From positions 1 to 64,000 of the IMG/VR virus record IMGVR_UViG_3300017992_000023: a stretch of 64,000 nt of DNA; one strand, written 5' to 3'. The notes beneath the pieces are model-generated. The model searched no databases. It was not told the DNA's origin and saw nothing but the letters and a program-made list of their open reading frames with translations. This stretch comes from a virus. Each line of letters starts with the position of its first letter. Position 1 is the stretch's first letter. Below, in pieces: positions 41,151-62,646 of the stretch. Made by a program: the position numbers and the translations under genes.

Positions 41151-42995
41151 TTACCCTTCGCAATTCAGACATTCGTCTGCACTCCCGAAAGGATCATCTA
41201 GCCGAATTCTCTCTACACTTTCTGAGAGGTTCTCGGCCTTCCTTGCCCCCTCAGATCGACAGTAATAGAGGGACTTCATTCCCTTAGCCCAAGCTAGTGT
41301 GTGGAGCCTGGAGAACTTCTTGATATCATACCCTTGGTAGATGAACAGATTCACAGACTGTGACTGACAGAGGTAAATCTGACGATCCCCCGCTAGTCCA
41401 ATAATGTACTCCTGGTCAATCTCCTTGGCAGTCTTGAAGACCTCTTTCTCCCATTCAGTCAAGCAGTCTATCCCTTGGACTGATCCATCGTCAACCAAGA
41501 TCTGCTTCCAGACCTCATTTAGCCACTCTCGATCTCGTCCAAGCTCTTTCATTCGCTCATAGAGGATCGCCTCCAGGTGCTTATTCTTGATCTCAACCGT
41601 GCCAGTAAGAGTCTGCTGTACGTAAGCATTCGCTTTCCAAGGCTCGATGCTGGGACTAGTATTAAGAAGAATACTTGTAGAAGCATTAGGAGCAATAGCA
41701 AGAAGATGGGCATTACGTAGTCCAGTCCCGACCATATCCTCTGGCTCACCACGCTCTTTAGCCAAAAGCTTCGAAGCTTCAACTGCCCTCTCCTTAACCA
41801 ATCTAAAGACCCTGTGGTTGATAGAAGCAGCCATCACATTCTCAAATGGAACATTCTTAGACTGTAAGTAGCTATGGAACCCCAAGGCTCCCAGACCCAG
41901 AGACCGCTCTGCTGCCGCGGACTTCACTGCTTTCGGGATATGCTGGGCATTCCTGATAAAGTACTCCAAGACATTATCCAAGTATCTTATAGCAAAGTAG
42001 ATAAAATCTGGATCCTCTGACCACTCATCAAACTTCTCTACATTCACAGAGGCTAGACAACAGACCGCTGTTCGTTCATCGTTAGTAGGAAGGGTAATCT
42101 CAGAGCATAGATTACTGTGATGAATCTTCAGGCCTTTAGCTTTCTGAGTCTCTGGAAGATCTCTGTTAGCCGTATCTACAAAGAAGATATATGGCTCACC
42201 AGTAGCTGCTCTCAATTGCAAGATCTTCTCATACAACTCACGAACCTTTAGCGTACCAGTTACTTGTCCACTGTCTGGATCAATTAGATGCCAGTCAGGA
42301 TCTTCCCCATTCTCAAGGGCATCTCTAACCAGTTCCATGAATACATCCGGGATATTAACTCCTTGATGAAGGTTCAAGTTCTTACGGTTGATATCGCCTC
42401 CGGAGGGCTTACGCATCTCCAGGAACTCGATGATCTCTGGATGGTCAAGATCCATATAGGCTGCATAAGAGCCCCTACGAGTCTTGCCCTGAGCCCATGC
42501 GAGCATTTGGCTATCAACTACGTGAAGAAAAGGTATGCTACCAGTGCTAACAGACCCATTGCTAGTAGTAGCTCCATCAGAACGTATATCGCCCCAATAG
42601 CCACCAATGCCTCCTCCGAAGGACGATAGCCAAGCATTTTCAGTATAGTGAGCATTTAGTCCTATCCGACTGTCAGGCACATAGTTCAAGAAACAACTGA
42701 TAGGCATCCCACCCTTTGTACTCTTGAAGTGTGTACTATTAAAGCTATCAAGTGGGTCTCCTTCAGCCCAAGAGATCCTCTCAGGAGCTGTAGATAACTC
42801 AGGAGATGCCGCGGATAGCCACTGCATACTCAGGTACTGATAGATCTTCTCAGCCATCTCAGGATAATCGGAGAAAGCCCGAGCAGTACGCAAATACATC
42901 TCTTGTGGGCTCTCTTCTCCTGGAATGAAATACCTATCTTTAAGAGTGAGCTTTGCGAAGTCCGTCAGCAAATTGTCACGTTCATAATCAATCAC
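41151..42995 (-). CDS. nrdA: ribonucleotide reductase class I, large (alpha) subunit
   Basis: 614 residues, starting with GTG at 42995 after AAGGAGG. Redox cysteines: Cys101 in PISCFLNY and the partner in AVCCLASVN; the thiyl radical cysteine is in SNLCSEITLP; radical-transfer tyrosines in SLYYCRSEG; shuttle cysteines in the C-terminal DECLNCEG. The protein is about 150 residues shorter than E. coli NrdA and begins at the helical domain, lacking the ATP-cone that allows dATP shut-off. Such loss would keep dNTP synthesis on during infection. Overlaps the DUF5664-like gene upstream. Confidence 0.93.
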   Translation of the reverse strand: MIDYERDNLLTDFAKLTLKDRYFIPGEESPQEMYLRTARAFSDYPEMAEKIYQYLSMQWLSAASPELSTAPERISWAEGDPLDSFNSTHFKSTKGGMPISCFLNYVPDSRIGLNAHYTENAWLSSFGGGIGGYWGDIRSDGATTSNGSVSTGSIPFLHVVDSQMLAWAQGKTRRGSYAAYMDLDHPEIIEFLEMRKPSGGDINRKNLNLHQGVNIPDVFMELVRDALENGEDPDWHLIDPDSGQVTGTLKVRELYEKILQLRAATGEPYIFFVDTANRDLPETQKAKGLKIHHSNLCSEITLPTNDERTAVCCLASVNVEKFDEWSEDPDFIYFAIRYLDNVLEYFIRNAQHIPKAVKSAAAERSLGLGALGFHSYLQSKNVPFENVMAASINHRVFRLVKERAVEASKLLAKERGEPEDMVGTGLRNAHLLAIAPNASTSILLNTSPSIEPWKANAYVQQTLTGTVEIKNKHLEAILYERMKELGRDREWLNEVWKQILVDDGSVQGIDCLTEWEKEVFKTAKEIDQEYIIGLAGDRQIYLCQSQSVNLFIYQGYDIKKFSRLHTLAWAKGMKSLYYCRSEGARKAENLSESVERIRLDDPFGSADECLNCEG

Positions 42996-43434
42996 TCCCT
43001 TCCTCCTTTACTATGCACATGGCTTGGTACAACTGGTCAGCGCGCATTTCGGCGTCGGCACCCTTTACTATAATCGCCCCTGGTTGATTCCATTCGGCTG
43101 GCTCATTCATAAAGAACTGATTCCATGTATCGACAGCCTCCTGATTGCTCTCGTTGGCCTTGATAGAAAACTCCAAGAGAGCTAACACATTCCAAGCAGC
43201 ATGAGCTAAGTGAGCCAAGCCAGATTCCTCATCCACTCCATCCTGCATGAGATGCCGGAAGAGAGCATCTCGATATCGATCAGGATCTACGGTCTTCCAG
43301 CCATTCGGGGTATACTTCTCAGCACCGAACGTCCCAACCTTAGCAACCTCCATAAGCGCCTTGTTAAAGCCGCCCAATACCAAGCCAGCTCGTGGCTTAC
43401 CCGCGTCGTATTTAACACCTGCTTCAGCGCTCAT
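42988..43434 (-). CDS. dATP/dGTP diphosphohydrolase-like protein (DUF5664-type)
   Basis: 148 residues from ATG 43434 (MSAEAGVKYDAGKPR), preceded by AAGGG. The pattern KYDAGKPRAGLV, then EVAKVGTFGAEKYTPNGWK, then RYRDALFRHLMQ and HLAHAAWNVLALLEF matches the phage family annotated as dATP/dGTP diphosphohydrolase N-terminal domain. Conserved acidic and His residues in helices would bind metal and nucleotide. Between MazG-like and nrdA genes, fitting a nucleotide-pool role. Substrate is not proven from sequence. Confidence 0.7.
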   Translation of the reverse strand: MSAEAGVKYDAGKPRAGLVLGGFNKALMEVAKVGTFGAEKYTPNGWKTVDPDRYRDALFRHLMQDGVDEESGLAHLAHAAWNVLALLEFSIKANESNQEAVDTWNQFFMNEPAEWNQPGAIIVKGADAEMRADQLYQAMCIVKEEGSD

Positions 43435-43753
43435 CACCGTCACCCTTAATAGTTCCTGCCTTCAACCGACCCGTCAGTTTATCCCGATTCTCAGCCATAA
43501 TCTCCTCAGGGCTCCAACCAAAGTGATCGCATAGTCGAACCATAAACCAGAAGAGATCTCCCATCTCTTTTCGGGCTCGATCCATCGCTTCGTCAAGCCC
43601 ATAGTCCCCGCGGTCATTCTTTGCGAATGCAGAGAAGAACTCTCCGACCTCTCCAACAAACCCGTTCATCAGATAGTCGTACTCATGCTCTTTTGGGTAC
43701 TTGGCTACAGTTCGAGTAAAAGCCATGTAATCATCGATCAAGATCTTACTCAT
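43424..43753 (-). CDS. MazG-like nucleotide pyrophosphohydrolase
   Basis: 109 residues. The MazG metal-binding pattern is present: FVGEVGEFFSAF (ExxE) and RKEMGDLFWFMV (ExxD) separated by about 30 residues. AAGGA precedes the ATG. Overlaps the DUF5664-like gene by 11 bases. MazG proteins in phages hydrolyse (d)NTPs or alter ppGpp-linked stress signals. Single-domain, as in other phages. Confidence 0.8.
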   Translation of the reverse strand: MSKILIDDYMAFTRTVAKYPKEHEYDYLMNGFVGEVGEFFSAFAKNDRGDYGLDEAMDRARKEMGDLFWFMVRLCDHFGWSPEEIMAENRDKLTGRLKAGTIKGDGDER

Positions 43754-45302: not shown

Positions 45303-45564
45303 CTCGAAGAGAAGCTACGGCAGCCACATTGCCGTCTGCTTCCGCTGCTTCCAATTCCTCTGAGTGAATACGAGCATCCCACTCAGCACTCAACTGCTCC
45401 AAGTAGTTAAAGGCCTGCGGTGCATAAGTAACCTCCTCCTCAACTACATCAGTCTCCTTGTTATAGATAATGTATACGTTCCCCTTCATTTCAGGGTCTC
45501 GCACACTCTCACCGACGATCAGTCGATAGACACCCATTTCCTTAAGTACGGTGCCTTTTAGCAT
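45286..45564 (-). CDS. hypothetical small acidic protein in replication operon
   Basis: 92 residues with AAGGAGG 8 bases before ATG. Beta N-terminal half (GTVLKEMGVYRLIVGESV, GNVYIIYNKETDVV) and an acidic helical C-terminal half (EELEAAEADGNVAAVASLRDG). Lies between SSB and the exonuclease; TAATG overlap with the SSB stop. No family recognised; a replication accessory role would be inferred from place only. Confidence 0.6.
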   Translation of the reverse strand: MLKGTVLKEMGVYRLIVGESVRDPEMKGNVYIIYNKETDVVEEEVTYAPQAFNYLEQLSAEWDARIHSEELEAAEADGNVAAVASLRDGYKH

Positions 45565-46418
45565 TACAGGTCCTCCTTAGATACCGGCTTAAACTCTGAA
45601 CCACCACCACCGGCGTATTCGACCAGTTCAATGACTTGAACTCCTTCCAGATCAGCAGACATACCGCTACCGAAGCTGTTGTTATACTGGTATGGACGGA
45701 TCTGTACCAATACCAATGAGCCGTTGCCAATCTCTTCATTGAACGGATTAGCATCTGCATCTACAACATTCGGCTTTCCTGCCTCTTCGCCAGTCACCTT
45801 CAGTACGTTACGCTTAACCTTGAAGACGTTATTATCTCCATCCTTCTTGACTTTCAGGCCAGCCTCTCGCAGCTCTTGTGCGACATCATCCTCGACAAGT
45901 AGAGTAATGCTGTACTTTGCAGGTGGGAAACGGTCGTCTGGTTTCTGAACGTGTGCCCAATTTGCAATACCTTTTACCAACATAAGTTTATTTCTCCCTA
46001 GCTCCTTCGAGCTATCTAGATAACGGATAGCGGACTGCAAGATCGCAGGGTTATCTTGTAGCAGTCCAAGTCCAGTGTTACAGTTAGAGCATAAAAGCCC
46101 CCTAACTGCCCCTGTTTGATGGTCGTGGTCAACGCAGAGATGACCAGAGATAGTCTCGTCATCCGATCCACATATCGCGCAGCAACCATGCTGTTCATCG
46201 ATCATAGTCAGGTAATGTTCCTCAGTGATACCATAACTATGCTTAAGGTGATGGCTCCTTCGGCCTTCAGTCTTACATGAAATGCAGTACATCGCCCTCC
46301 CATCAGGGGAGGATTCTTGTCGATGGAAAGCATCGAATGCCTTCTCTGTACCACACTTCGTGCAGACCTTACGACCTCTGGAGATATCATACTCTATCTC
46401 CTCTCTCGTTCGTGGCAT
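45564..46418 (-). CDS. HNH (endonuclease VII-type) fused in frame to gp2.5-like ssDNA-binding protein
   Basis: 284 residues if read from 46418. Residues 1-145: zinc finger CTKCGTEKAFDAF...CISC, then HNH core LCVDHDHQTGAVRGLLCSNCN, with CAICG, typical of endonuclease VII-like homing nucleases. Residues 146-284: an OB-fold SSB with pattern ANWAHVQKPDDRFPPAKYSI and LVLVQIRPYQYNNSFGSGMSA then GVQVIELVEYAGGG, matching T7 gp2.5/DUF2815-type proteins. An SD and ATG at the junction would make the SSB alone (45564-45983). AAGGAGG lies 14 bases before the long start. Possibly a homing nuclease that joined the reading frame. Confidence 0.8.
   Translation of the reverse strand: MPRTREEIEYDISRGRKVCTKCGTEKAFDAFHRQESSPDGRAMYCISCKTEGRRSHHLKHSYGITEEHYLTMIDEQHGCCAICGSDDETISGHLCVDHDHQTGAVRGLLCSNCNTGLGLLQDNPAILQSAIRYLDSSKELGRNKLMLVKGIANWAHVQKPDDRFPPAKYSITLLVEDDVAQELREAGLKVKKDGDNNVFKVKRNVLKVTGEEAGKPNVVDADANPFNEEIGNGSLVLVQIRPYQYNNSFGSGMSADLEGVQVIELVEYAGGGGSEFKPVSKEDL
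45981..45998 (-). promoter_or_regulatory. internal ribosome binding site and start of the SSB
   Basis: GGGAG at 45994-45998 lies 10 bases before ATG at 45981-45983, which begins MLVKGIANW, the natural SSB start. It implies that the 139-residue SSB is made independently of the HNH-SSB fusion. Confidence 0.75.
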
Positions 46419-51989: not shown

Positions 51990-52116
51990 TCTTAACCTCC
52001 TTATGAAGCCGGTTACGTCGGAGCTCGAACCACCAGCACGTTAGTTTTCCGTAGCCTTCTCTTCCCCACAGGAATCTTTCTACGGTTGAAACAGCGTTCT
52101 CTAAAGTAGTGCTCAT
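51976..52116 (-). CDS. hypothetical small protein after primase-helicase
   Basis: 46 residues (MSTTLENAVSTVERFLWG...), with GAGGAG at the right distance and an ATGA overlap with the primase-helicase stop. Helical N-terminus, Trp/Arg-rich centre (TCWWFELRRNRLH). Unrecognised. Confidence 0.6.
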   Translation of the reverse strand: MSTTLENAVSTVERFLWGREGYGKLTCWWFELRRNRLHKEVKNGHV

Positions 52117-53762
52117 AGCTCCTCTGCCATATCCTCAGGACGTTTCTCAAGCCACCTACCAGTATCATGGTGATACTTCAGCTTAAACGTTGTACCGGTC
52201 GCTAACCCGGTGTTGCGATCTTTCAATACACGGAATGTTGTTGTGTTCCTCTCATCTTCGTCTTCAGCTTGGCTATTACGCTCAAGACCAAATAGAAAAT
52301 GGCTCCAGAACACGATAGAACCTGACCCTTTAAATTGGTCGGCTGTGACACGTCCGCCCTCTTCGTGCGGAGTTCCTGCTGGTTTACGCAGGTGTGAGAT
52401 ATAGAAGATTGTGCAACCCAGCTCTTCCGTTAAACTGGCCAATTCTTCCATAATACGGTTGAGTGCCTTGTACTCGTTATCCTCTTGAGCAACAAGTGCT
52501 GTTAGATGGTCTAGGAAAATATCCTTAATTCCTAGTGCTGTGACCATATACTTGATCTTAGATCTGATATGGTTCCAGTCTTTTGCTCCGAAGTGGTTGT
52601 ATAGGTACACCTTACCCTTAAGACTGTTGATCCCGTCCTGCAGTTCATCTACCGTCCAGTCTTCACCTGGAATATGGAACCTCTTGTTGAACTTCTTACC
52701 TGCAAGCACTTTAAGTGTTTTGGCAGCAGGCTCTTCAAGAAACAAGACTCCAACAGGAAGATTATGGACACTGATGACGTGGTTAATAATCTCTTTAAAA
52801 GCTTCAGTCTTACCTGCACCTGATCCGGCACCAATACCGTAGAGCTCTCCCCTCCGATAGCCAAACGTAGCTTTAGTAAGAGTAGGCCAAGGGAAAGACA
52901 AGCCCCATTCGACAGGCTTCATTGCTTCTTCGGCAATATCTTCGACTGAACAAATACCATCAGGCCTAGTAGTCGATGCATTCCAGAGAGAATTAAAGAA
53001 CTCATCACCCTTATTGGCTTGCAGAAGATCATTAGCATCCTTTTCAGAGAAGTGCATAACCTTCACCTTGCCTGGAGTCAGAAGTTCTGATACCTCTTTA
53101 GCGGCCTTCTGCCCTGGCTCATCCTGATCGAACGCAATTGCGATGGACTCGAATGTTTCGAGGTATTCGATATTATCTCGGATCGCTCTTGTATTAGCCC
53201 CATTCGGCAGAGACACGACCTTGTAATTCTTCCCACGCTTTTGGAACATCTGCCATGCGGACATTGCATCAAATTCACCCTCAGTGATTACAAGCAGCTT
53301 CCCGCCTTTAGGCGCTGTTTGCTGCCCAAATAGGGTATTAGCCTGTTCAGTTCTCTGTATGCGAAACTTCTTATCCGCGTCTCTTGTCTTGTATCCTACA
53401 AGCCTTCCATCCTCCGAGTAGATAGGATAGTGAACCTCTGCAATCTCTCCGGTCGATTCGTCCACAGAGCAACGGACCCCGAAATGCTCGCAAGCCTCCT
53501 TAGTCAGGCCCCGATTAGGGATGGCGATGATAGTACTCTCCGCCTTAATTTGGTCAATCATCTGACCTCCAATTGGTTTAAAAGATTGAGGAGGGTCCTT
53601 GATTCCCTCCGGATCTACGCCCCTCTGTGGAGTGTTGCAACTAAAGCAATACCCCGTGATACCTCTCTCTCCTGAGTCGTAGATCGCATAAGCATCCGAC
53701 GATCCACAATCAGGATTAGGACAAGGCAGGCCAGACTGTATCAGCTTGCCTTCAGTCTTCAT
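52113..53762 (-). CDS. DNA primase-helicase (T7 gp4-like)
   Basis: 549 residues. N-terminal zinc-binding domain with Cys14, Cys19, Cys39 and Cys42 (PCPNPDC, YCFSC). Primase TOPRIM motifs in LLVITEGEFDAMSAW (~155) and AIAFDQDEPGQKA (~215). DnaB-like helicase with Walker A GAGSGAGKTE near residue 305, DIFLDHLTALV as Walker B region, and TIFYISHLRKP. It unwinds DNA and primes the lagging strand. First replication gene encountered by transcripts from the early end. Starts after AGGAG. Confidence 0.93.
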   Translation of the reverse strand: MKTEGKLIQSGLPCPNPDCGSSDAYAIYDSGERGITGYCFSCNTPQRGVDPEGIKDPPQSFKPIGGQMIDQIKAESTIIAIPNRGLTKEACEHFGVRCSVDESTGEIAEVHYPIYSEDGRLVGYKTRDADKKFRIQRTEQANTLFGQQTAPKGGKLLVITEGEFDAMSAWQMFQKRGKNYKVVSLPNGANTRAIRDNIEYLETFESIAIAFDQDEPGQKAAKEVSELLTPGKVKVMHFSEKDANDLLQANKGDEFFNSLWNASTTRPDGICSVEDIAEEAMKPVEWGLSFPWPTLTKATFGYRRGELYGIGAGSGAGKTEAFKEIINHVISVHNLPVGVLFLEEPAAKTLKVLAGKKFNKRFHIPGEDWTVDELQDGINSLKGKVYLYNHFGAKDWNHIRSKIKYMVTALGIKDIFLDHLTALVAQEDNEYKALNRIMEELASLTEELGCTIFYISHLRKPAGTPHEEGGRVTADQFKGSGSIVFWSHFLFGLERNSQAEDEDERNTTTFRVLKDRNTGLATGTTFKLKYHHDTGRWLEKRPEDMAEEL

Positions 53763-53773
53763 ATATTCATCTC

Positions 53774-54100
53774 CTAGGACTTATTTTTTAAGATTAACAG
53801 TTGATTCTCTAGATGCCGAATCTGTTGCTCATTTCGAAGACGCGCATCCTTCTCAGCAGCCTCCTGCTCCTCGGGAGTTAGCGGTCTCATGTACCAGACA
53901 CGAACAAAAGCATACGTCTCGTCATACTCAGTGTCCCAATCAACTTCGAAATTCGCTTCATCTCGATATTCGACTGGTACCAAAGACAGAAGTTCCTGAA
54001 ACTTCTTGATGGCATCTTTAAGGTTGTTATTAATATCCCAAGCTCTGATGTGAGCTACCTCTACGGTTTTAGATCCGACATGTCCCTTGAAGCGAATCAT
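53774..54100 (-). CDS. hypothetical protein between amidotransferase region and primase
   Basis: 108 residues. Beta start (RFKGHVGSKTVEVAHIRAWD), then charged, with a helical end (EEQEAAEKDARLRNEQQIRHLE). The Shine-Dalgarno is weak (AAGGCGG, 10 bases away). Unrecognised; could belong to the amidoligase cluster or to replication. Confidence 0.55.
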   Translation of the reverse strand: MIRFKGHVGSKTVEVAHIRAWDINNNLKDAIKKFQELLSLVPVEYRDEANFEVDWDTEYDETYAFVRVWYMRPLTPEEQEAAEKDARLRNEQQIRHLENQLLILKNKS

Positions 54101-54103
54101 GAC

Positions 54104-54979
54104 TTAAGCCGCCTTAGCTTGCTTACCAAGCTTGAAGAGCATCCGCTTAGCTGCTTCCCAGTTTGGTTGGAAGATAGAGGGATCCTCGTAATCACTGTAA
54201 TCCCAGCATGAACCATCCTCCTCCAGGTGCTCAATGGCCTCATAGTCTCCAGACCTATGAGCGAGGATGAGATTACTCAATGACTGAACCCCACCATATT
54301 CATGAGCGTATTCAGATTCGCCACTAGCGTTGATAGAATCCTTGAATGGCTGTAGATCAAGGTCTCCCATGAGATCAATGAATCCTTTAATGCTGCCAAA
54401 GGCCCTATTGAGTGGCCGGAGGTATGAAGAGTCGTTGCAAGACTGAGCATCATAATCCTTCGAGAGACTGACGAAGTCCCCCTTTGCTGATGCTGTAGTA
54501 GCTACACGGAGCAGAAGAGTGTAGAAGGACAGGGATGCTGGGTGATCAGCCCACACTGAATCCCCCTCTGCCAAGAAGTATCTGGCATTTAAAAGCGGAT
54601 CACTTGATTCGATCTCCTCTACCGTAGTGAGTCCCTTTCCAGTCTCCTTAAAGACCTTGTTCAATGGCTCGATATTTTCCAGGAGATACTTAGCTTCTCC
54701 CTCAGAGGATACTCGCATAATAAGACGAGTCTTGTCCCTATCAATAGGGTTGTCCTCACCGTCGAACTCAAATCCATAGATCTTCGGGATAGCCTCGTTC
54801 CAAGCAGTCGACATGACCGCATCACCGAGGAAGTCGCGGCACTTAACCCATTCGTGCTGAGCTACAAGCGACCCATCCTCCTTCTTAGACACGAAGGTCC
54901 ACCGAAGAGTTCCATCCTGACTGATTTCAGAGAGGTCGCTACCATAGATGTCATCGAATTCAGTAAACTTTTTCATCAT
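54104..54979 (-). CDS. unrecognised protein of the amidoligase cluster
   Basis: 291 residues from ATG 54979 (MMKKFTEFDD), which has GAGGG at 5 bases and overlaps the amidotransferase stop (TAATG); a longer in-frame start lies inside that gene. Acidic, aromatic-rich (RYFLAEGDSVWADHPASLSFY, DYDAQSCNDSSYLRPLNRAFG). The C-terminus is helical and basic (AAKRMLFKLGKQAKAA). No motif recognised. It is cotranslated with the amidotransferase, so likely linked to its job. Confidence 0.6.
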   Translation of the reverse strand: MMKKFTEFDDIYGSDLSEISQDGTLRWTFVSKKEDGSLVAQHEWVKCRDFLGDAVMSTAWNEAIPKIYGFEFDGEDNPIDRDKTRLIMRVSSEGEAKYLLENIEPLNKVFKETGKGLTTVEEIESSDPLLNARYFLAEGDSVWADHPASLSFYTLLLRVATTASAKGDFVSLSKDYDAQSCNDSSYLRPLNRAFGSIKGFIDLMGDLDLQPFKDSINASGESEYAHEYGGVQSLSNLILAHRSGDYEAIEHLEEDGSCWDYSDYEDPSIFQPNWEAAKRMLFKLGKQAKAA

Positions 54980-56409
54980 TAAATCCCTCGAAAATCCCAA
55001 CCATTTTGAGAAAGGCAATGTTTGCAGATAGGGCGTCCAGCAGAATCCCAACCGGTTTCTTGGTCATCCTCTGGATCAATGTCTCCACCACACATCTCAC
55101 AACCGTTTTGAATCAGCTCTTCCCAACGCATCTCAGAGACCATCTGGTTCATTGGACCACAGCGATTCAGCTCAGGGGAGGTGTCTATATCCTCCTCAAG
55201 GATTGCAGGAGATTCATCCTCTTCTTCAACCATGAACATCGGATTTTTCCCGAAAACCGTGTAGTACGGTTCATCACCATAGACTACGCAGCTGCATCCA
55301 ATAACGTCTACGACAATCGGATCATCCTGCATACTCTCGTAGGTTTTTGCCTCTAGTCCCGGGACGTGGATCTCTGCCTCTTTACCAGAGGGAGTGCTTA
55401 CAAAACCGATGAGCTTACCGTGAGTGCTATTCACATCCGTTCCAGAGACTTTATAGTACTCAAAGTCGATAGGTTCAAAAGTGACCATATTCCCAAGCTC
55501 TAGCCCAAGATTCTTCAGGTGAGCTTTAGCAACGTCTTCTTTAGCTGCTTGCCCAGAGACTTGATTTGAAGACGAATTGGCAGCGCTCTGGGAGTTACTG
55601 CCACCCGCTGGTGTGTGGTGATTGCCTCCTTGATTACCAGTTCCACCGGGTCCTTGATAGCCGTACTTCTCATACCAAGACTCATAGATCTCGAATTCCT
55701 CGACCTCGTATTCCCGAGTATCTTCTGGGTCCATCGAGACATGGACGCCGGGCTTGAGAGACCATACATCCTCGATGTCAAACCTATTCCTTCCAGCCAA
55801 CCACTCCAGCATCCCAGCCTCTGACGCTAGCAGCAGAGTATTCTGCTTCTTCTCATACGCCAGATGTAGTGGTCGCTGTTCGTTACGAGCGAAGTGAATC
55901 TTCTCATCACGCATGTCATACCAGATAAGCGCATAAGCCCCATCAAGCTTCTCTAAGATAGTCTTAGGATCGTCCGTCTGAGAGAGGGCGTAAGCGATTG
56001 CTTCGGAATCTACATCAAATTTGGTACTGCCAGGAAGATCATTCCAGTAGTCCAAGGTCCCATTATGGACCAGGGTCACGTCTCCATGCTGGAATGGATG
56101 GGCCGTATCGTGATCGATGCCTCCCATAGTCGCCCAGCGGTTGTGTCCGATAAGAATCTGAGTCTTCTGAAGCTTAGACAGACTGCTGTCCACATACTTC
56201 AAGTCCAGGAAATCATTAGCGTGATAGGCTCGCTTAAGAACCTCGACTGAAGGGGTGGAGTTAAAGAAATTGCTCTTATCCACCTTGAAGAACCCAGTTG
56301 AATGGGGGCCGCGAATTGCATCAGCGATCAGAGCATTCTTAAAGAACTTGCCCCTATCGATATCATTGGCAGCACCACCAGTACTGATAACACCAACTAG
56401 TCCACACAT
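54979..56409 (-). CDS. class II glutamine amidotransferase with zinc-ribbon tail
   Basis: 476 residues from ATG 56409; this start puts Cys at position 2 (MCGLVGVIS), which class II glutaminases need as N-terminal nucleophile after Met removal; a TTG two codons earlier would block it. Glutaminase motifs: GHNRWATMGG (~89), LVHNGTLDYW (~113) and DSEA (~134), as in GlmS/PurF-type domains. Beyond ~250 no synthetase or isomerase domain is seen; instead a Gly/Asn/Ser-rich linker, a beta domain, and a C-terminal CEMCG...CKHC zinc ribbon. It should release ammonia from glutamine for a partner ligase. TAATG overlap with the amidoligase gene upstream. Confidence 0.85.
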   Translation of the reverse strand: MCGLVGVISTGGAANDIDRGKFFKNALIADAIRGPHSTGFFKVDKSNFFNSTPSVEVLKRAYHANDFLDLKYVDSSLSKLQKTQILIGHNRWATMGGIDHDTAHPFQHGDVTLVHNGTLDYWNDLPGSTKFDVDSEAIAYALSQTDDPKTILEKLDGAYALIWYDMRDEKIHFARNEQRPLHLAYEKKQNTLLLASEAGMLEWLAGRNRFDIEDVWSLKPGVHVSMDPEDTREYEVEEFEIYESWYEKYGYQGPGGTGNQGGNHHTPAGGSNSQSAANSSSNQVSGQAAKEDVAKAHLKNLGLELGNMVTFEPIDFEYYKVSGTDVNSTHGKLIGFVSTPSGKEAEIHVPGLEAKTYESMQDDPIVVDVIGCSCVVYGDEPYYTVFGKNPMFMVEEEDESPAILEEDIDTSPELNRCGPMNQMVSEMRWEELIQNGCEMCGGDIDPEDDQETGWDSAGRPICKHCLSQNGWDFRGI

Positions 56410-57374
56410 TAGCAAGATACCTCTAAGAAGTTTTTAAATGATTTGGAATATGCCGAAGGCTTTCCGGGTAAGTAAGCAGCCCTATTGTGCGCTGCATGTT
56501 GCAGAAGGATCGATTGCACATTGCGTGCCCCTCTCAACATAGTACGAGGTTCCAGGGTTTTCTTGAACCTCTCAGCGATGTCTTCTGGGAAGACTTGATC
56601 GAGAATCCTGTCAAATCCCTGACCAGATATTGTCTCTGGGAGCTTCATCAAATCAAACGTACCTTTCACAGCTGCCTTACGGATAGACAGAAGAGTATTG
56701 ATCCATCGCTTGACTGTGCCACCGTCATAGCACCCTGGGAAGACACGAAACTCAGCAGTCCCAAGAGTCCTGAGAGACTGCAGGTTCAATGCAGAATACT
56801 TTGGCCAGTACTGAACAATGGTACGAAGCGCATCTGCTGAGAAATCACTCTTGATCAGCGTAGACAGGTTATCCTTCAAGTCAGAAGATTTGCTGATTGG
56901 CAGGCAGTAGTTATTGCCCACTCTCTCAGGGGACTCAGAATTCAGGATAGTCTCCTCAAACATCACGTAATACAAGAGGAAATTTGCCAGCTGCTTAGGA
57001 GTCAGATCAGATACATCGACGTGGATGTGGGTGGAGGTTCGCGGGCCTACCGAAGGAAGCCGCCGCCCCAAGCTCTTCAGCTTAGCGATGGATTGATCTA
57101 AAGCCTCTAGCGCTACGCCAACATCGTACCCCTTAATAGGTTTTCCATCGCAGCTGCTGATCAATTCACAGCAAGTTCCGCGGAGGGAATGATCATGCTC
57201 CCATATCCAGTTATTCTCACGAAGGAAAGTCGAGGAATACATGGACAAATCCGATACATCTTCGAGCTCAAGCTCAATCCCCACTTGGACATCGGAATCG
57301 ATGATCGATTCATCTGATTCATGGCTTCGAGTATCCGGATAGATACCGAATAAAGGACCTACTTGATTCGTCAT
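56409..57374 (-). CDS. amidoligase (GS-fold COOH-NH2 ligase, PF12224-type)
   Basis: 321 residues with GGAGG 8 bases before ATG. Expected metal and substrate residues of the amidoligase family: Glu34/36/38 in VGIELELEDV, the DHSLRG loop (~61), Glu70 in CCELIS, His116/118 in THIHVDVSD, and Glu208/Arg210 in TAEFRVFPG. These enzymes join carboxyl to amine with ATP. N-terminal ~27 residues are extra. Adjacent to the class II amidotransferase with overlapping codons. Substrate unknown. Confidence 0.82.
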   Translation of the reverse strand: MTNQVGPLFGIYPDTRSHESDESIIDSDVQVGIELELEDVSDLSMYSSTFLRENNWIWEHDHSLRGTCCELISSCDGKPIKGYDVGVALEALDQSIAKLKSLGRRLPSVGPRTSTHIHVDVSDLTPKQLANFLLYYVMFEETILNSESPERVGNNYCLPISKSSDLKDNLSTLIKSDFSADALRTIVQYWPKYSALNLQSLRTLGTAEFRVFPGCYDGGTVKRWINTLLSIRKAAVKGTFDLMKLPETISGQGFDRILDQVFPEDIAERFKKTLEPRTMLRGARNVQSILLQHAAHNRAAYLPGKPSAYSKSFKNFLEVSC

Positions 57375-57389
57375 GAATAATTCCTCCAG

Positions 57390-58319
57390 TTAATAAATTT
57401 CAGGTTCATCTGTATCCCCTTCAGCTTCAAGCTCATCGAGGAACGCCTCAAAATCCAGCTGAGGTGCGGGTGGCTGTCCGTCAGGTGTCTCGACCCAATG
57501 AGTAACAGTATTCATTGTTGTCGGGGGATTGTGAGCCATCGCAGCTTTGAGCTCTTGCCAATAGGCTGCATCATAGGGCTTGGAATCAGGCATCTCGGTT
57601 ATTTCATCATCAACCTTAAACCCGAGCTCTTCGAGTTCCTCACGATACCTCTTCAAATCCTCAGAGATCAGCTTAATATCCCCTGAGTCTAGTGAATAAT
57701 GCCCAATAACACGACCCTCTCGGGCAACTTGAAACTCTTCTCTCTCGTAGGAAAGATGGATGGAGTAATCGTTGGACAATGCACAGCCTATTCGCTTCCC
57801 ATTAGCCAGCTCTTCAAGAGCATCCTCTAGAGTCCGATATTCCGGACCGTTCCAAGCCCGGAACAAAGCTTCGGCGTAAGGTTCCTCAGTGAAGATGGAG
57901 GCAGCGAGAGCCTCTGACTTTGCAGGATCCTTGTAGGCTATGGAGTACTTAGATGGAGTCTTCCGGTACTTATAGTTCCCCTCCACATCTGCAAGACGCG
58001 AGAAGTACACAGCTCTCGGACCGATTTCAAGAACCCCCAGCTCTGGGAAAGACAGCTCTAACTCATCTATCTCTGCCCCTATTTCCAGCACGGTATCCCA
58101 GCTGTTTTTGTGCGGGTAACTTCCCAGCCTAAACCAAGCTAGGTCAGCAGGGATAGACTCATGGTCATCACTCTCGTATTCACATGAATCTTCATGCTCT
58201 TCATTAAGACCAATAGAATAGATGAACGCTGGGATAATAGTCTTATTCGGCAACTTCACCCCAACGAAAGTGTTGGAATACTTTACATGAAGATCGTGAA
58301 TGGTCTCTCTGTAAGGCAT
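57390..58319 (-). CDS. unrecognised protein between two amidoligases
   Basis: 309 residues with AGGAGG upstream. Beta-rich, acidic, with conserved-looking segments SYPHKNSWDTVLEIGAEIDEL, LGVLEIGPRAVYFSRLAD and YSIHLSYEREEFQVAREGRV. A Pro-rich linker and a short acidic tail (FEAFLDELEAEGDTDEPEIY) end it. No catalytic motif spotted. Being sandwiched between two ligases it may be a substrate carrier, partner or third subunit; this is inference. Confidence 0.6.
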   Translation of the reverse strand: MPYRETIHDLHVKYSNTFVGVKLPNKTIIPAFIYSIGLNEEHEDSCEYESDDHESIPADLAWFRLGSYPHKNSWDTVLEIGAEIDELELSFPELGVLEIGPRAVYFSRLADVEGNYKYRKTPSKYSIAYKDPAKSEALAASIFTEEPYAEALFRAWNGPEYRTLEDALEELANGKRIGCALSNDYSIHLSYEREEFQVAREGRVIGHYSLDSGDIKLISEDLKRYREELEELGFKVDDEITEMPDSKPYDAAYWQELKAAMAHNPPTTMNTVTHWVETPDGQPPAPQLDFEAFLDELEAEGDTDEPEIY

Positions 58320-58327
58320 CGGGCCTC

Positions 58328-59155
58328 CTATGCTACTAGCAAATTAAGGTCAGCGCAGTAGCTTTGGGCTGCTTCCACGTCAGACTCGTTAATGATTCGT
58401 TGAATCTCCGCACCATCAAGAGCACCGTCTTCGAGGTAGTACATGAACTCCTCAGTGCGTTCCAGGCCCATCTTGATTGCTTCGAAAGCCCATCGCAGAG
58501 TTTCATCAGAGCGAAGCCAGAAGTTGCTCAGAGTGCGATACTCGATCCCATTGAATGGATCTTTCGCCCCCATGAACTTCGGACGGTGGCATCCAGCCTT
58601 GCCGTAAAGGGATCGACGAGTGCTGTCTGGGTCCATCACAACAGACGGGAGAGCCGCGGCAATATCGCATGCTTTGACCACATTAGCACGTCGGATAGCT
58701 TCTGCACGATTACGTGCGCTGTCCAAGTAGTCCAAACTGATATGAATATGCCCAGCGCCTGAACGAAGGTTGGTAGCACCCAGATCAGGAGGATTATTAA
58801 TGCTGAGGCTCCAAGCATTAAAGTCTGGCTCACATCCTGCGGCCTTAGCTTTGGCGTGGTCGAGCTGGTCATCATCGAAGACCCCGGTAGGTTGAACAGA
58901 TACGGACAGATCGAGCGGCTTGATGATAGTAGTGATATCGTCCATCACCAGCTTATGATTCTCGATGAATTCCTCTACAGTCGCAGAGGGTTTGGAGTTA
59001 AACTCCAGAAGGACATTGTCCTCTTGGACAGATCCGTGATTGGTAATACGTGGTTGCTTCTTTGTACCGCCAATCTTTCCGATAGAACTAATGAGCTTAC
59101 CGCTCTTATCCTTCAGAAAGATCTCTGGGTCAGAGCCTAAAAGAAAACCGTGCAT
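58328..59155 (-). CDS. phiEco32-like COOH-NH2 ligase type 2
   Basis: 275 residues with GGAGG before ATG. Family pattern clearly present: GSDPEIFLKDKSG (Glu11), DNVLLEFNSKPSA (Glu51, Asn53), GHIHISLDY (His136/138) and GIEYRTLSNFWL (Glu205, Arg207), the GS-like ligase family named after phage phiEco32. Predicted to form amide bonds with ATP. A different family from the amidoligase at 56409, so two ligations may occur. Followed by AEIQRIINESD and short C-terminus. Confidence 0.86.
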   Translation of the reverse strand: MHGFLLGSDPEIFLKDKSGKLISSIGKIGGTKKQPRITNHGSVQEDNVLLEFNSKPSATVEEFIENHKLVMDDITTIIKPLDLSVSVQPTGVFDDDQLDHAKAKAAGCEPDFNAWSLSINNPPDLGATNLRSGAGHIHISLDYLDSARNRAEAIRRANVVKACDIAAALPSVVMDPDSTRRSLYGKAGCHRPKFMGAKDPFNGIEYRTLSNFWLRSDETLRWAFEAIKMGLERTEEFMYYLEDGALDGAEIQRIINESDVEAAQSYCADLNLLVA

Positions 59156-59170
59156 TAGGTGTTCCTCCGA

Positions 59171-59704
59171 TTACTTAATCTTTGAGTCCAGTACCTTGAC
59201 AACGCTGTCAATGAACTTGTTGATCTTCTTGATCTTACGAGTGATCGCCTTGCTTTCGGTCTGGATAGACTGGAGCTTAGCTCGCTCAGCCTCAGCCTTA
59301 GCGATAGCATCAATCAGTTCATCTTCTGACATTGTGTTAACATCAGTACCGTTTACCAGTTGGCGGGTTTCGAATTTAAACATTTCATTTTCCTTTACAT
59401 TGGATGGCATAGGTATGCATGGCTTGGTGGAGTATGCAATCGCAATACTCCTCGATACAGGTAGGCCCTCTTTTATCAGTCTCTTGACAAGGTCGTCATA
59501 AGTGAAACGCAAGTTATCCTGCAGATGCGACGGAAGGGACTTTTCAATCTTAATAGCCCTGACTATCGACTGCAAGACAGATCTCTGGTATGAGCCCCCA
59601 GCCTCTATCGCCTCAATAGCGTTCTTATGCCACTTAGGGTCATTACGTATCAGCAGTGACAAGTGAAAGAGGCTATCCTCAGTTAAGTTTACCTCATCAT
59701 TCAT
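59171..59704 (-). CDS. unrecognised two-part protein of the amidoligase cluster
   Basis: 177 residues from the ATG at 59704 (MNDEVNLTED), with GAGGG 6 bases before it. First part (~107 residues) is helical (HLSLLIRNDPKWHKNAIEA, DNLRFTYDDLVKRLIKEG). Second part (70 residues) begins MFKFETRQLVNG at 59383 behind its own AAAGGA and is an acidic-then-basic helix (EDELIDAIAKAEAERAKLQS). It reads like two genes joined in frame. No family recognised for either. Confidence 0.6.
   Translation of the reverse strand: MNDEVNLTEDSLFHLSLLIRNDPKWHKNAIEAIEAGGSYQRSVLQSIVRAIKIEKSLPSHLQDNLRFTYDDLVKRLIKEGLPVSRSIAIAYSTKPCIPMPSNVKENEMFKFETRQLVNGTDVNTMSEDELIDAIAKAEAERAKLQSIQTESKAITRKIKKINKFIDSVVKVLDSKIK
59381..59396 (-). 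promoter_or_regulatory. internal ribosome binding site inside 59171-59704
   Basis: AAAGGA at 59391-59396 precedes ATG 59381-59383, which would start the separate 70-residue protein MFKFETRQ.... Spacing is 7 bases. It suggests that the second part can be made alone. Confidence 0.55.
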
Positions 59705-59915
59705 AGACATCCCTCGTGCTGATGCGTATCCCATTGGCAACGTTGGTTTGGCTGAAGTTAGCCTCCCTTTCAATGCTCTGCGCTAGGTGAGCCGCTGATA
59801 TAGCCCCTGCAAGCATCTGCCCATCTAAGAGTTCGATGATGTACTCAGCTGCTTTCAACGGGGTTGAGCAGTACCTAATACCGCCATCTGATGTTACTAA
59901 GTAGATCTTGATCAT
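59697..59915 (-). CDS. hypothetical small protein after ATP-grasp
   Basis: 72 residues. ATGA overlap with the ATP-grasp stop and 8-base overlap with the next gene. Alpha/beta with Ala/Ile-rich helices (PLKAAEYIIELLDGQMLAGA) and an initial strand pair (MIKIYLVTSDGGIRYC). Could be a small subunit or carrier; unrecognised. Confidence 0.6.
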   Translation of the reverse strand: MIKIYLVTSDGGIRYCSTPLKAAEYIIELLDGQMLAGAISAAHLAQSIEREANFSQTNVANGIRISTRDVYE

Positions 59916-60709
59916 GCTACATCCTCGATGTACTTCTTGATAGCACCAACGTAGGCATCAACAGTCGTGTCCCCGCTCAGGCCAGGGGCCGTATTAACTT
60001 CAAGAACAACAGGAGATCCATCGACATTGATCACATCAACAGCACCGAAGATAAGACCAAGGGCTTTAACAGCTCGGATAGCCTCTGCTTGGAATCCATT
60101 AGGGATAGGGATATCTGATCCATCAGCATTCTTACGAGCAAAGATCCACCCGTTTGCATGAGATCGGATAGACTTCTCAATCCCGATAGGAGGCTCACCA
60201 GTCTTACGGCGCTTCTTTGCATGGTCGATGACCTTACCATTGAAAACATGGAAGCGGTATTCACCCTTAGACTTGTTGAACTCAGTGAACAGGTGAGCTT
60301 TCGGCAGGTATGTCGCCTCGTTAGTCAGGACAATACCTTGCCCAGAGTGACCAGTCAACTTGGTCCGAGCTGCGAGAACAAGGCCGTCGTTATGCAACCA
60401 CTCTAAAGCCTGCAAGTAGTCATCAGTGTACCGGGGGATCTTGACCCCATGTTCAGACAGCAGGTTAAAGGCCAACCTCTTATTGGATGCCGTATGTACG
60501 ATACTGGGGCTGTTGAGTACACCATCTTCGGCTGCCCATTTAACCGCACGAGAAGAGCCCCAGTTAACGATGATATCTCCGGGCTTGTAAACGTAGGTGG
60601 ACCCAGTGGTCTTCAATCGACGATTAGGGACGCCTGCCTCTCTCAGAGCCGTGCTAAGGGCCTCTGCACTAACCGATCCAGATACATAGGGGTTGATAAA
60701 AAGTCGCAT
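59912..60709 (-). CDS. ATP-grasp ligase
   Basis: 265 residues from ATG 60709 (MRLFINPYVS), with GGAG 7 bases upstream; an in-frame start 93 bases earlier lies inside the neighbour. ATP-grasp features: preATP segment, ASNKRLAFNLLSEHG, the Gly-rich loop KLTGHSGQGIVL (~117-128), and metal ligands Asp225 in FGAVDV and Glu237/Asn239 in LEVNTAPGLSG. Closest in style to RimK/D-Ala-D-Ala-type carboxylate-amine ligases. Third ATP-dependent ligase of the cluster. Substrate not predictable from sequence. Confidence 0.85.
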   Translation of the reverse strand: MRLFINPYVSGSVSAEALSTALREAGVPNRRLKTTGSTYVYKPGDIIVNWGSSRAVKWAAEDGVLNSPSIVHTASNKRLAFNLLSEHGVKIPRYTDDYLQALEWLHNDGLVLAARTKLTGHSGQGIVLTNEATYLPKAHLFTEFNKSKGEYRFHVFNGKVIDHAKKRRKTGEPPIGIEKSIRSHANGWIFARKNADGSDIPIPNGFQAEAIRAVKALGLIFGAVDVINVDGSPVVLEVNTAPGLSGDTTVDAYVGAIKKYIEDVA

Positions 60710-60710
60710 A

Positions 60711-61394
60711 TCAGGACTCCATAAGCTTTTTAACTGTGTAGAAAAAGTACTGGTAGTACTGTGAGTGTGATGACATCCATTCGGGATGTGGCTGGTGCCC
60801 AAGTGTCTTGGTGTTAGGCCAGTAGACCACCTCTGGGTCTATTTGATCTCCAGCATCGTCCGTAGTACCAAAAGCAAGATGTCCTGGGCATATCTCGACA
60901 GGATTCGACTCCCTTGCATAGAGAAGGATCTCCGCATCTGGGGTTGGGACCATCATTTGATGATGATCTGAAGACACTAGAAGAATCTTTGCGCCGTCGT
61001 CACTGTACGCTGTGTGGTCACCGTGATGCCCCGTCATGTGCTGAACACAAGTGCCACCATTCAAGTAGCAGAGGAACTGAGCCCCGCGGCAGATGCCAAC
61101 AATAGGGATCTTCAACGACAAAGCTGTCCTAGCTACATGAAGCTCAAAGGCATCCCTACTGGGGCTTGTTGGCCCACATTTTGGATCCTGTATGTACCCG
61201 AAAGACAGCGGATTAACATCCTCTCCCCCGGTTAGGCACACCAAGTCTGCTTGAGATATATAATCATTTATATCTGGGTGATCTGAGAGAAAATCATGTG
61301 GGTCGATGTTGTATACGTTCGCCCCCTCAGATTCGAATAGGTCGACATAGTCCAGATCTCCTAGTACAAGTACCTTTTTGCCTGCAAGTTTCAT
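60711..61394 (-). CDS. class I glutamine amidotransferase / C26 gamma-glutamyl hydrolase-like
   Basis: 227 residues with GAGGAG before ATG. Nucleophile Cys102 in VGICRGAQF, His203 and Glu205 in QPHPEWM complete the triad. GGEDVNPLSFGY is the family's substrate-side motif seen in PuuD/gamma-Glu-GABA hydrolases. It could hydrolyse gamma-glutamyl amides or donate ammonia. Separated from the ATP-grasp start by one base, so coupled. No fused synthetase. Confidence 0.83.
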   Translation of the reverse strand: MKLAGKKVLVLGDLDYVDLFESEGANVYNIDPHDFLSDHPDINDYISQADLVCLTGGEDVNPLSFGYIQDPKCGPTSPSRDAFELHVARTALSLKIPIVGICRGAQFLCYLNGGTCVQHMTGHHGDHTAYSDDGAKILLVSSDHHQMMVPTPDAEILLYARESNPVEICPGHLAFGTTDDAGDQIDPEVVYWPNTKTLGHQPHPEWMSSHSQYYQYFFYTVKKLMES

Positions 61395-62005
61395 TTACGC
61401 TCCTCTATAAACTGTTCGAAGAAATTATCAATAGCTGTCTTATCCCAACTGCTAGACCCAACAATCCTAAGTGGGTGAAGACTAGCTTCTTTGATGAGAT
61501 CGCTGAAGTTATCCACCACGATCTCCAGGAGGTCTTCAGGTAGCGCACTCGTTCTCTCAGCTATGTTCTGATGCCCGGGCTGTGCCAGACAGAATTGAGA
61601 CCATTCGTTAAACGTATCAGTGAACCTCTTAACGATGTGGCCTGAACCAGCCAGGATACTCCTAATAAAGTCATCACCCTCCTCTCCAGGAGACCGGATA
61701 AAGGACAACAGAAACAAGGTAGAGATCTTTCCAGATCCCTTATGGAACTTGAGGGATAGGTCATCCTCCAACCATTCACCCAAGTCCCTTTTAAGCAACT
61801 CTTGGTACCCCAATCGCTCAGTGCGCGTGAGTGATGAGAAATCTGGCCTGATTACGAAATGGTCAACCTCTTCATACGCTGGAGAGATCATACCATCGTA
61901 TTTAAGCTCGGCTTCAAATTCCTCTTCATCAATCAGGTGCCTAATGCAGATAGTTTCGTGTTCCAATACCTCCCCGGACTTCAGATGATACTCGATCACG
62001 TGCAT
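61391..62005 (-). CDS. unrecognised protein of the amidoligase cluster
   Basis: 204 residues from ATG 62005 (MHVIEYHLKSG), preceded by GAGGAGGG; an earlier in-frame start is less supported. Beta start, then helical (SSLTRTERLGYQELLKRDLGEWL, FTDTFNEWSQFCLAQPGHQN). ATGA overlap with the C26 gene and 65-base overlap with the gamma-glutamylcyclotransferase gene. No motif recognised. Confidence 0.6.
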   Translation of the reverse strand: MHVIEYHLKSGEVLEHETICIRHLIDEEEFEAELKYDGMISPAYEEVDHFVIRPDFSSLTRTERLGYQELLKRDLGEWLEDDLSLKFHKGSGKISTLFLLSFIRSPGEEGDDFIRSILAGSGHIVKRFTDTFNEWSQFCLAQPGHQNIAERTSALPEDLLEIVVDNFSDLIKEASLHPLRIVGSSSWDKTAIDNFFEQFIEERK

Positions 62006-62393
62006 AGATACCCTCCTCTGCTTCTTGAACATGCGTCATCCAGTTTCCAGATGGGACTGGTTGAGCACCGCTGGGGACGTTGGCTGTTTCCATGAAATAC
62101 AGGTAAGCCTCACCCCAAGGAGTGGGGATTCGTTTCCTGTCATATAGGTCTGGATAGCCCTCCAGTGTATCCAGTACATGCAGGTCCTCTACCTCGTACA
62201 CTTCCAGATAAACAGAGTGTTCACCTTCAAGTGTAATTGCAGGATACCATGTCAGATCCCACATAGTAAAGGACGGTGGGGTCCAGAAGCCACCCATCGG
62301 CTTCCCTCCAGCATCCTTCATGATCGCATGGTTCCCCATGTCCTTCCTGAGAGTACCGTATACAGCTACACGTGCGACGGTCTTTTCAGCCAT
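61941..62393 (-). CDS. gamma-glutamylcyclotransferase-like protein
   Basis: 150 residues from ATG 62393 (MAEKTVARVAVYGTLR), with GGGGG upstream. The YGTLR loop (12-16) and the catalytic Glu78 in LDTLEGYPDLYDR are the GGCT/AIG2-like signature. These enzymes release 5-oxoproline from gamma-glutamyl amines. C-terminal ~35 residues are extra. In this cluster it could trim gamma-glutamyl conjugates. Overlaps the preceding gene's region by its tail. Confidence 0.83.
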   Translation of the reverse strand: MAEKTVARVAVYGTLRKDMGNHAIMKDAGGKPMGGFWTPPSFTMWDLTWYPAITLEGEHSVYLEVYEVEDLHVLDTLEGYPDLYDRKRIPTPWGEAYLYFMETANVPSGAQPVPSGNWMTHVQEAEEGIYARDRVSSEVRGGIGTRNYLH

Positions 62394-62394
62394 C

Positions 62395-62646
62395 TTAGCG
62401 CCCCCAAGGAGCATACAGTGGGTCCTGAGTGCAAGAGGTGCAGGTATACAGATTTGCGCTCAGAAGCTCAGCGATCCTCTCACAGTGGTCGTATGTCCCA
62501 GAGACATAGATGCTGACAGGTGGCTTCACGTTGCCGTTAGGGTCAGTAAAGCCCTCAGCATTGAACCAGAAGCCTCGTGGCTCCTCTGAGGCATTGGCTC
62601 CAAGAGAGGCCAGCGCGATGATGATAGTAATCAAAAGCTTCTTCAT
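62395..62646 (-). CDS. small periplasmic protein with conserved cysteines
   Basis: 83 residues from ATG 62646 (MKKLLITIIIALASLGANA), a textbook signal peptide cleaved after ANA, chosen over a longer in-frame start that lacks it. Mature part has three Cys (DHCERIAELL, LYTCTSCTQDP) including CxxC-type spacing. TAATG overlap with the upstream gene. Its place directly before the GGCT gene hints at an envelope link for the cluster. No family recognised. Confidence 0.6.
   Translation of the reverse strand: MKKLLITIIIALASLGANASEEPRGFWFNAEGFTDPNGNVKPPVSIYVSGTYDHCERIAELLSANLYTCTSCTQDPLYAPWGR

Follow-up and report, generated by a model that had tools for sequence, protein, structure and literature searches.

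A phage amide-ligase cassette recurring across many viruses, with a peptidoglycan precursor as its tentative substrate

Layout of the cassette and identity of its enzymes

The window analyzed here comprises the first 64,000 bases of the 68,553-base IMG/VR virus record IMGVR_UViG_3300017992_000023. It belongs to a podovirus-type phage that encodes a portal, a major head protein, and an SU10-type adaptor on the plus strand and a PolA-type DNA polymerase, a primase-helicase, an exonuclease, a ribonucleotide reductase, and ThyX on the minus strand. On the latter strand, a cassette of amide ligases and associated enzymes (54104 to 62414) immediately precedes the primase-helicase. A single coupled operon, as postulated in the original prediction made from the letters of this DNA, is well supported by the sequence: up to the primase-helicase, neighboring genes either share from a few to some tens of bases or have gaps of at most ~16 nucleotides between them, and Shine-Dalgarno-like sites precede most of the predicted starts. 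In the window and in the loci of its relatives, the neighbors are genes for primase/helicase and DNA polymerase, without virion genes beside them. We refined the start codons by the positions of Shine-Dalgarno sites; in the case of GAT2, the obligatory MCG was used as well, which placed its start at 56409 instead of at an upstream TTG; the corrected starts of the ATP-grasp ligase and of the last cassette protein (D315) are 60709 and 54979. The genes, from high to low coordinates, are as follows.

61941 to 62393, minus strand: GGCT, gamma-glutamylcyclotransferase of the AIG2/GGACT fold; the reading frame opens at 62414, and the start is 62393 or 62414
61391 to 62005, minus strand: protein of 204 to 213 amino acids, probably cargo; no Pfam or PHROG match, present in 1 of 86 loci, no BLAST relative
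60711 to 61394, minus strand: GAT1, hydrolase of the class I amidotransferase fold, Peptidase_C26/PuuD type (PF07722)
59912 to 60709, minus strand: GRASP, RimK-like ATP-grasp ligase (phrog_2599)
59697 to 59915, minus strand: protein of 72 amino acids, probably cargo; no relatives detected
59171 to 59734, minus strand: protein of ~187 to 200 amino acids, probably cargo; no relatives detected
58328 to 59155, minus strand: LIG2, phiEco32-like COOH-NH2 ligase type 2, GS/GCS fold (phrog_3815)
57390 to 58319, minus strand: MID, conserved cassette protein between the two GS-fold ligases; a divergent, longer member (phrog_11055 family)
56409 to 57374, minus strand: LIG1, Amidoligase_2, GS/GCS fold (PF12224, phrog_7469)
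54979 to 56409, minus strand: GAT2, class II (Ntn) glutamine amidotransferase domain plus zinc-ribbon-like C-terminal region (PF13522, phrog_4736)
54104 to 54979, minus strand: D315, accessory cassette protein; its family recurs in a subset of loci
53774 to 54100, minus strand: protein of 108 amino acids that connects the cassette with the replication genes; without relatives
52113 to 53762, minus strand: DNA primase/helicase, directly downstream (phrog_239, E = 3e-176); context, outside the pathway

Two GS-fold ligases, an ATP-grasp ligase, class II and class I amidotransferases, and a GGCT had been predicted, and Pfam and PHROG matches allow all six identities to be assigned with confidence. 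LIG1 matches PF12224 (E = 4e-12) and phrog_7469 (E = 1e-42), and LIG2 matches phrog_3815 (E = 4e-72), with a weak match to PF14395 that falls below the cut-off of that family (E = 0.002). The ATP-grasp ligase was recognized by phrog_2599 (E = 3e-69) and by a RimK match just above its cut-off, GAT2 by GATase_6 (PF13522, E = 2e-17) and phrog_4736 (E = 5e-87), and GGCT by GGACT (PF06094, E = 5e-17) and phrog_2520 (E = 3e-23). GAT1 belongs with Peptidase_C26/PuuD (PF07722, E = 2e-19), and its PDB matches are Lin1909 and PuuD.

Alignments with cassette homologs from other phages indicate that the catalytic residues are intact in all six enzymes, as had been predicted by eye, and the degradation that would have spoken against a functional cassette was not seen in them. 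The motifs G(S/A)DPE, GHxH, and EYRxLSN of LIG2 are invariant, as are GxExE, RxxxHxH, and EFR of LIG1, ENTAPG and the other ATP- and metal-site residues of the ATP-grasp ligase, and the signature YG(T/S)L plus LEGYP of GGCT. In GAT2, the MCG start (Cys2), GHNR, HNG, and VDS, including the glutamine-binding loops, are invariant, and the Cys-His-Glu triad of GAT1 (C102/H203/E205) is invariant in 25 cassette homologs. The C terminus of GAT2 (55000 to 55110, minus strand) carries two CxxC pairs (CEMC and CKHC) that resemble a zinc ribbon, and a CxxC is present in the C-terminal portion of 53 of 84 GAT2 homologs.

Recurrence and conserved core of the cassette

A scan of IMG/VR anchored on LIG2 only yielded, together with five annotated phages and the window, 86 loci; a second scan anchored on LIG1 gave the same picture. 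Each scan took the 80 best matches to the window phage, and the sample leans to near relatives. Collapsing loci at 85% LIG2 identity left 131 non-redundant loci, 93 of which are flanked by 2.5 kb or more on each side. About half of the non-redundant loci were fetched via LIG1, and the unbiased figures are therefore those of the LIG2-anchored set. In that set, LIG1 was found in 84 of the 86 loci, GAT2 in 83, the ATP-grasp ligase in 79, MID in 68, GAT1 in 67, GGCT in 32, and D315 in 23. The 93 complete non-redundant loci agree: LIG2, LIG1, and GAT2 are universal, and they are accompanied by the ATP-grasp ligase (90/93), MID (79), GAT1 (65), GGCT (44), and D315 (22). The order LIG2-MID-LIG1 is conserved even though the LIG2 sequences are mostly 30 to 45% identical.

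The genes correspond to the “Peptidoglycan Modification Cassette,” a seven-gene set of GGCT, glutamine amidotransferase, two amidoligases, and ATP-grasp that includes “degradation” enzymes and is conserved in RIO-1, phiEco32, 7-11, PA11, tf, MR299-2, LUZ24, PaP3, and CW02 (PMC5498523); it was described again for phiM6 (PMC6256558) and U17 (PMC11945000). The window has both ligases clustered, an ATP-grasp ligase with a class II glutaminase, and GGCT with a second amidohydrolase, all placed before primase/helicase, and its cassette is a member of this described podovirus set. It extends to the Crassvirales, with Cellulophaga phage phi14:2, and is also carried by the BASEL phages Bas91 and Bas94. 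LIG2 matched 307 of the 50,697 phage records in INPHARED. Among 84,980 prokaryotic species genomes we found nine cassette loci, all on contigs of metagenome-assembled genomes (MAGs), mostly short, and most with other cassette genes; the family is therefore essentially viral. One such contig, binned as an archaeon MAG (L174), has GAT2-LIG1 and D315-LIG2 as two pairs 3.5 kb apart, near which the ATP-grasp ligase and GGCT were not detected.

LIG1 and GAT2 are direct neighbors in 91 of 125 loci (77 + 14), and in the complete 43-kb genome of MEP401 they overlap and are the only cassette genes present. From this adjacency and sole presence, we infer that LIG1-GAT2 is a glutamine-dependent amide synthase. 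A gamma-glutamyl-removing enzyme occurs in 88 of the 93 complete loci (GAT1 only, 44; GGCT only, 23; both, 21; neither, 5). This bears out the make-and-trim logic of the original prediction, which had stressed the combination with both hydrolases. That emphasis was too strong, since the combination is not special to the window phage: all six enzymes occur together in 22 of the 131 non-redundant loci and in CW02, an isolated phage, and with the seven-gene cassette already published (PMC5498523), the six-enzyme combination is not new. GAT1 and GGCT are anti-correlated in the raw table (Fisher p = 1e-5); as interchangeable removers they are not established, as the LIG2 tree leaves only one or two well-supported independent pairs.

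The prediction had counted four to five unrecognized proteins. We found five, of which two belong to conserved families (57390 to 58319 and 54104 to 54979), and three, without relatives, look like unique cargo. The first of the conserved ones, MID, is immediately followed by LIG1 in 104 of 109 loci and immediately preceded by LIG2 in 95 of 109, a constancy that suggests a partnership with one of these ligases; it is an overlooked conserved member of the cassette that emerges from this comparison. The MID of the window matches phrog_11055 (E = 0.002); of 52 family members, 42 match phrog_11055 and 14 match phrog_4877, neither of which has an assigned function, and no library that we searched gave a functional annotation. 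Its AlphaFold model is of medium confidence (pLDDT 77), with one weak PDB match, SH3/tandem-Tudor-like (E = 0.01). We considered whether MID is fused to the N terminus of the crAss-like LIG1, where an extension has a similar length, and rejected this, as the profile comparison was non-significant.

The second, D315, has an invariant Cys47 and His226 (numbered from the start at 54979) and a confident AlphaFold model (pLDDT 82), for which the PDB gave nothing better than E = 0.2. Neither the fetched loci nor BLAST gave relatives of the genes for 213, 200, 108, and 72 amino acids, and those for 213, 200, and 72 amino acids are probably cargo unique to the window phage. In 30 loci (L068:7222-7398 and 29 others), we detected a small zinc-ribbon protein of 56 to 118 amino acids with an acidic tail and the pattern MRCxxCxxxL..E.TRK...DLCxxC, which in related phages commonly follows close behind the cassette. 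We rejected it as a LysW-like carrier: its C terminus is not conserved, it is absent from the window, and only three phage records match.

Proposed pathway and competing explanations

We propose that the cassette alters a cytosolic peptidoglycan precursor through an amide-ligase pathway acting early in infection and thereby changes the wall, a tentative reading to which we assign a probability of roughly 0.45. The sequence of reactions, the gamma linkage, the substrate, and the advantage to the phage are inferred. The pathway would operate in the cytosol, with its enzymes probably made early, and in it LIG1, LIG2, and the ATP-grasp ligase would make ATP-dependent amide bonds on a soluble peptide precursor bearing a carboxylate or amine. 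GAT2 most likely supplies LIG1 with ammonia derived from glutamine. LIG2 and the ATP-grasp ligase would join amino-acid-like units, and MID is probably a helper of LIG1 or LIG2. The PuuD-like GAT1 and/or GGCT would then remove or recycle a gamma-glutamyl group, a linkage suggested by the families to which these enzymes belong. A cytosolic peptidoglycan precursor is the most likely substrate, and the wall change might serve superinfection exclusion or preparation for lysis.

A role in peptidoglycan modification was proposed by Hardies 2013 and Iyer 2009, as cited in PMC5498523, PMC6256558, and PMC11945000, and PMC10580990 credits Iyer et al. 2009 with suggesting that the wall is modified to prevent superinfection. 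In PSA-HP1, the cassette genes are expressed immediately after infection (PMC7082346). The ATP-grasp, glutamine amidotransferase, and YtfP/GGCT proteins of SU10 were detected by mass spectrometry in a polyethylene glycol-concentrated lysate, not in gradient-purified virions (PMC4281155). Because the cassette genes are early and lie inside the replication block, a virion substrate is less likely, and because a conserved membrane partner was not seen, the substrate should be soluble. Several points weigh against a role in the wall. We found no biochemical test of any cassette member, and the gene tables of the loci list no flippase, transferase, or membrane anchor accompanying the cassette. The gamma-glutamyl amides on which GAT1 and GGCT act occur in canonical wall peptides only at D-Glu, so that a wall role is not chemically required, and for the alternation of these two enzymes, function and common descent could not be told apart.

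The gamma-glutamyl group serves as a temporary protecting group, removed at the end, in the Puu putrescine pathway and in the BtrJ/BtrG steps of butirosin synthesis. Used in this way, the cassette might build a virus-specific small molecule, such as an amidated or gamma-glutamylated peptide or amine, from which GGCT or the PuuD-like enzyme removes the protection. Such a pathway fits the enzymes almost as well as a peptidoglycan precursor does: ATP-grasp with GGCT and GS-fold ligase with PuuD are two textbook protect/deprotect pairs, at least one remover is kept in nearly all complete loci, in alternative combinations, and no cassette partner indicates a macromolecular target. Ligase and remover are thus clustered, but neither a carrier nor a free amine substrate was recognized, the cassette has no conserved transporter, carrier protein, or tailoring enzyme, and the zinc-ribbon protein is unconvincing in the carrier role. 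We regard this explanation as possible but doubtful. The more specific idea that a virus-only pathway yields a novel small molecule or tag, amidated and protected for a time by gamma-glutamyl, for host takeover or counter-defense, and not a wall change, seems unlikely to us. Less probable again is the addition of amino acids to a host protein, for example, of the ribosome or the transcription machinery, as RimK does to S6; the RimK-like ATP-grasp ligase, the name of phrog_2599 (S6 glutaminyl transferase), and the early expression in PSA-HP1 favor it, but three ligases and two amidohydrolases exceed the needs of tagging, and the similarity to RimK is only at the level of fold.

An amide-linked modification of DNA bases or nucleotides that protects the phage genome is very improbable, even though the cassette is placed within replication genes and cassette-bearing Gordonclarkvirinae resist restriction-modification with no known genome-modification pathway (PMC11990801). 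The 65.8 kb of the Escherichia phage Bas91 genome that we examined (L176, L180) also contain EcoRI (12) and EcoRV (38) sites at chance number. We disfavor this explanation because ordinary enzymes cut the DNA of cassette-bearing relatives and because Bas91 encodes two further proteins that may protect it: a dCTP deaminase and a nuclease annotated as anti-restriction. The DNA of tf is cut by RsaI, HpaI, EcoRV, SmaI, and HaeIII (PMC3517423), that of LUZ24-like phages by EcoRI, HindIII, Sau3A, and AluI (PMC3634792), and that of U17 by 11 of 16 enzymes (PMC11945000); in these relatives, the DNA is thus not refractory as would be expected of hypermodification. We also observed that the 65.8 kb of Bas91 contain no PstI site, where ~14 are expected. 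That the genes are unrelated metabolic cargo lying together by chance has a negligible probability. The three small intervening proteins unique to the window phage would suit it, but near-universal co-occurrence from two independent anchors and in the non-redundant set, together with the conserved LIG2-MID-LIG1 order, refutes it and upholds the conserved co-occurrence that had been predicted.

The cassette takes up several kilobases in many unrelated phages, including podoviruses of Proteobacteria and crAss-like phages of Bacteroidota, and was first predicted more than 15 years ago. The window adds one member and helps define the core, with LIG1-GAT2 as the minimal pair and MID as a partner. 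Since the tractable phages Bas91 and Bas94, which infect Escherichia coli K-12 with restored O-antigen, carry the cassette, the question of what it modifies can be tested now; if the substrate is found, it would represent new virus-encoded chemistry.

Elsewhere in the window, we detected a nuclease-SSB fusion of 284 amino acids (45564 to 46418, minus strand), which matches endonuclease VII over the first half of its length and a Gp2.5/Enc34-like single-stranded DNA-binding protein over the second. Two giant proteins are encoded on the plus strand, one of 2,450 amino acids (7096 to 14448), a small part of which weakly matches a PHROG without assigned function, and one of 2,298 amino acids (31161 to 38057). 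One stretch of a 151-amino-acid protein (42988 to 43443, minus strand) matches PHROGs with conflicting names, “endolysin; inhibits RNA polymerase” and “dATP/dGTP pyrophosphohydrolase.”

Comparison with known systems

The Puu and butirosin BtrJ/BtrG systems resemble the cassette by analogy only, in pairing a GS-fold ligase with PuuD and an ATP-grasp ligase with GGCT; unlike it, they are cellular, have a single ligase/remover pair, and work without a class II glutaminase. The amidoligase and GATase pair of MEP401 (PMC10580990) shares LIG1 and GAT2 as overlapping genes, whereas LIG2, the ATP-grasp ligase, GGCT, GAT1, and MID are absent from its whole genome. Phage phi14:2 shares GGCT, the ATP-grasp ligase, LIG2, GAT2, and LIG1 with the window but has GAT2 before LIG1, an N-terminally longer LIG1, and no detectable MID. 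The nearest annotated relative is MW202615, an uncultured podovirus from Manatee Spring whose LIG2 is 46% identical to that of the window; it has GGCT, the ATP-grasp ligase, LIG2, MID, LIG1, GAT2, and D315, followed by replication genes, but is without GAT1 and the genes for 213, 200, and 72 amino acids. Also close is the podovirus cassette of RIO-1/PSA-HP1, phiEco32, and others, which shares the six enzyme families, the primase/helicase neighbor, and the core of LIG2, unknown protein, and LIG1. The window differs in having both GAT1 and GGCT (a minority, 22 of 131 loci) and the accessory D315; its MID is divergent and longer, and three of its small genes are unique.

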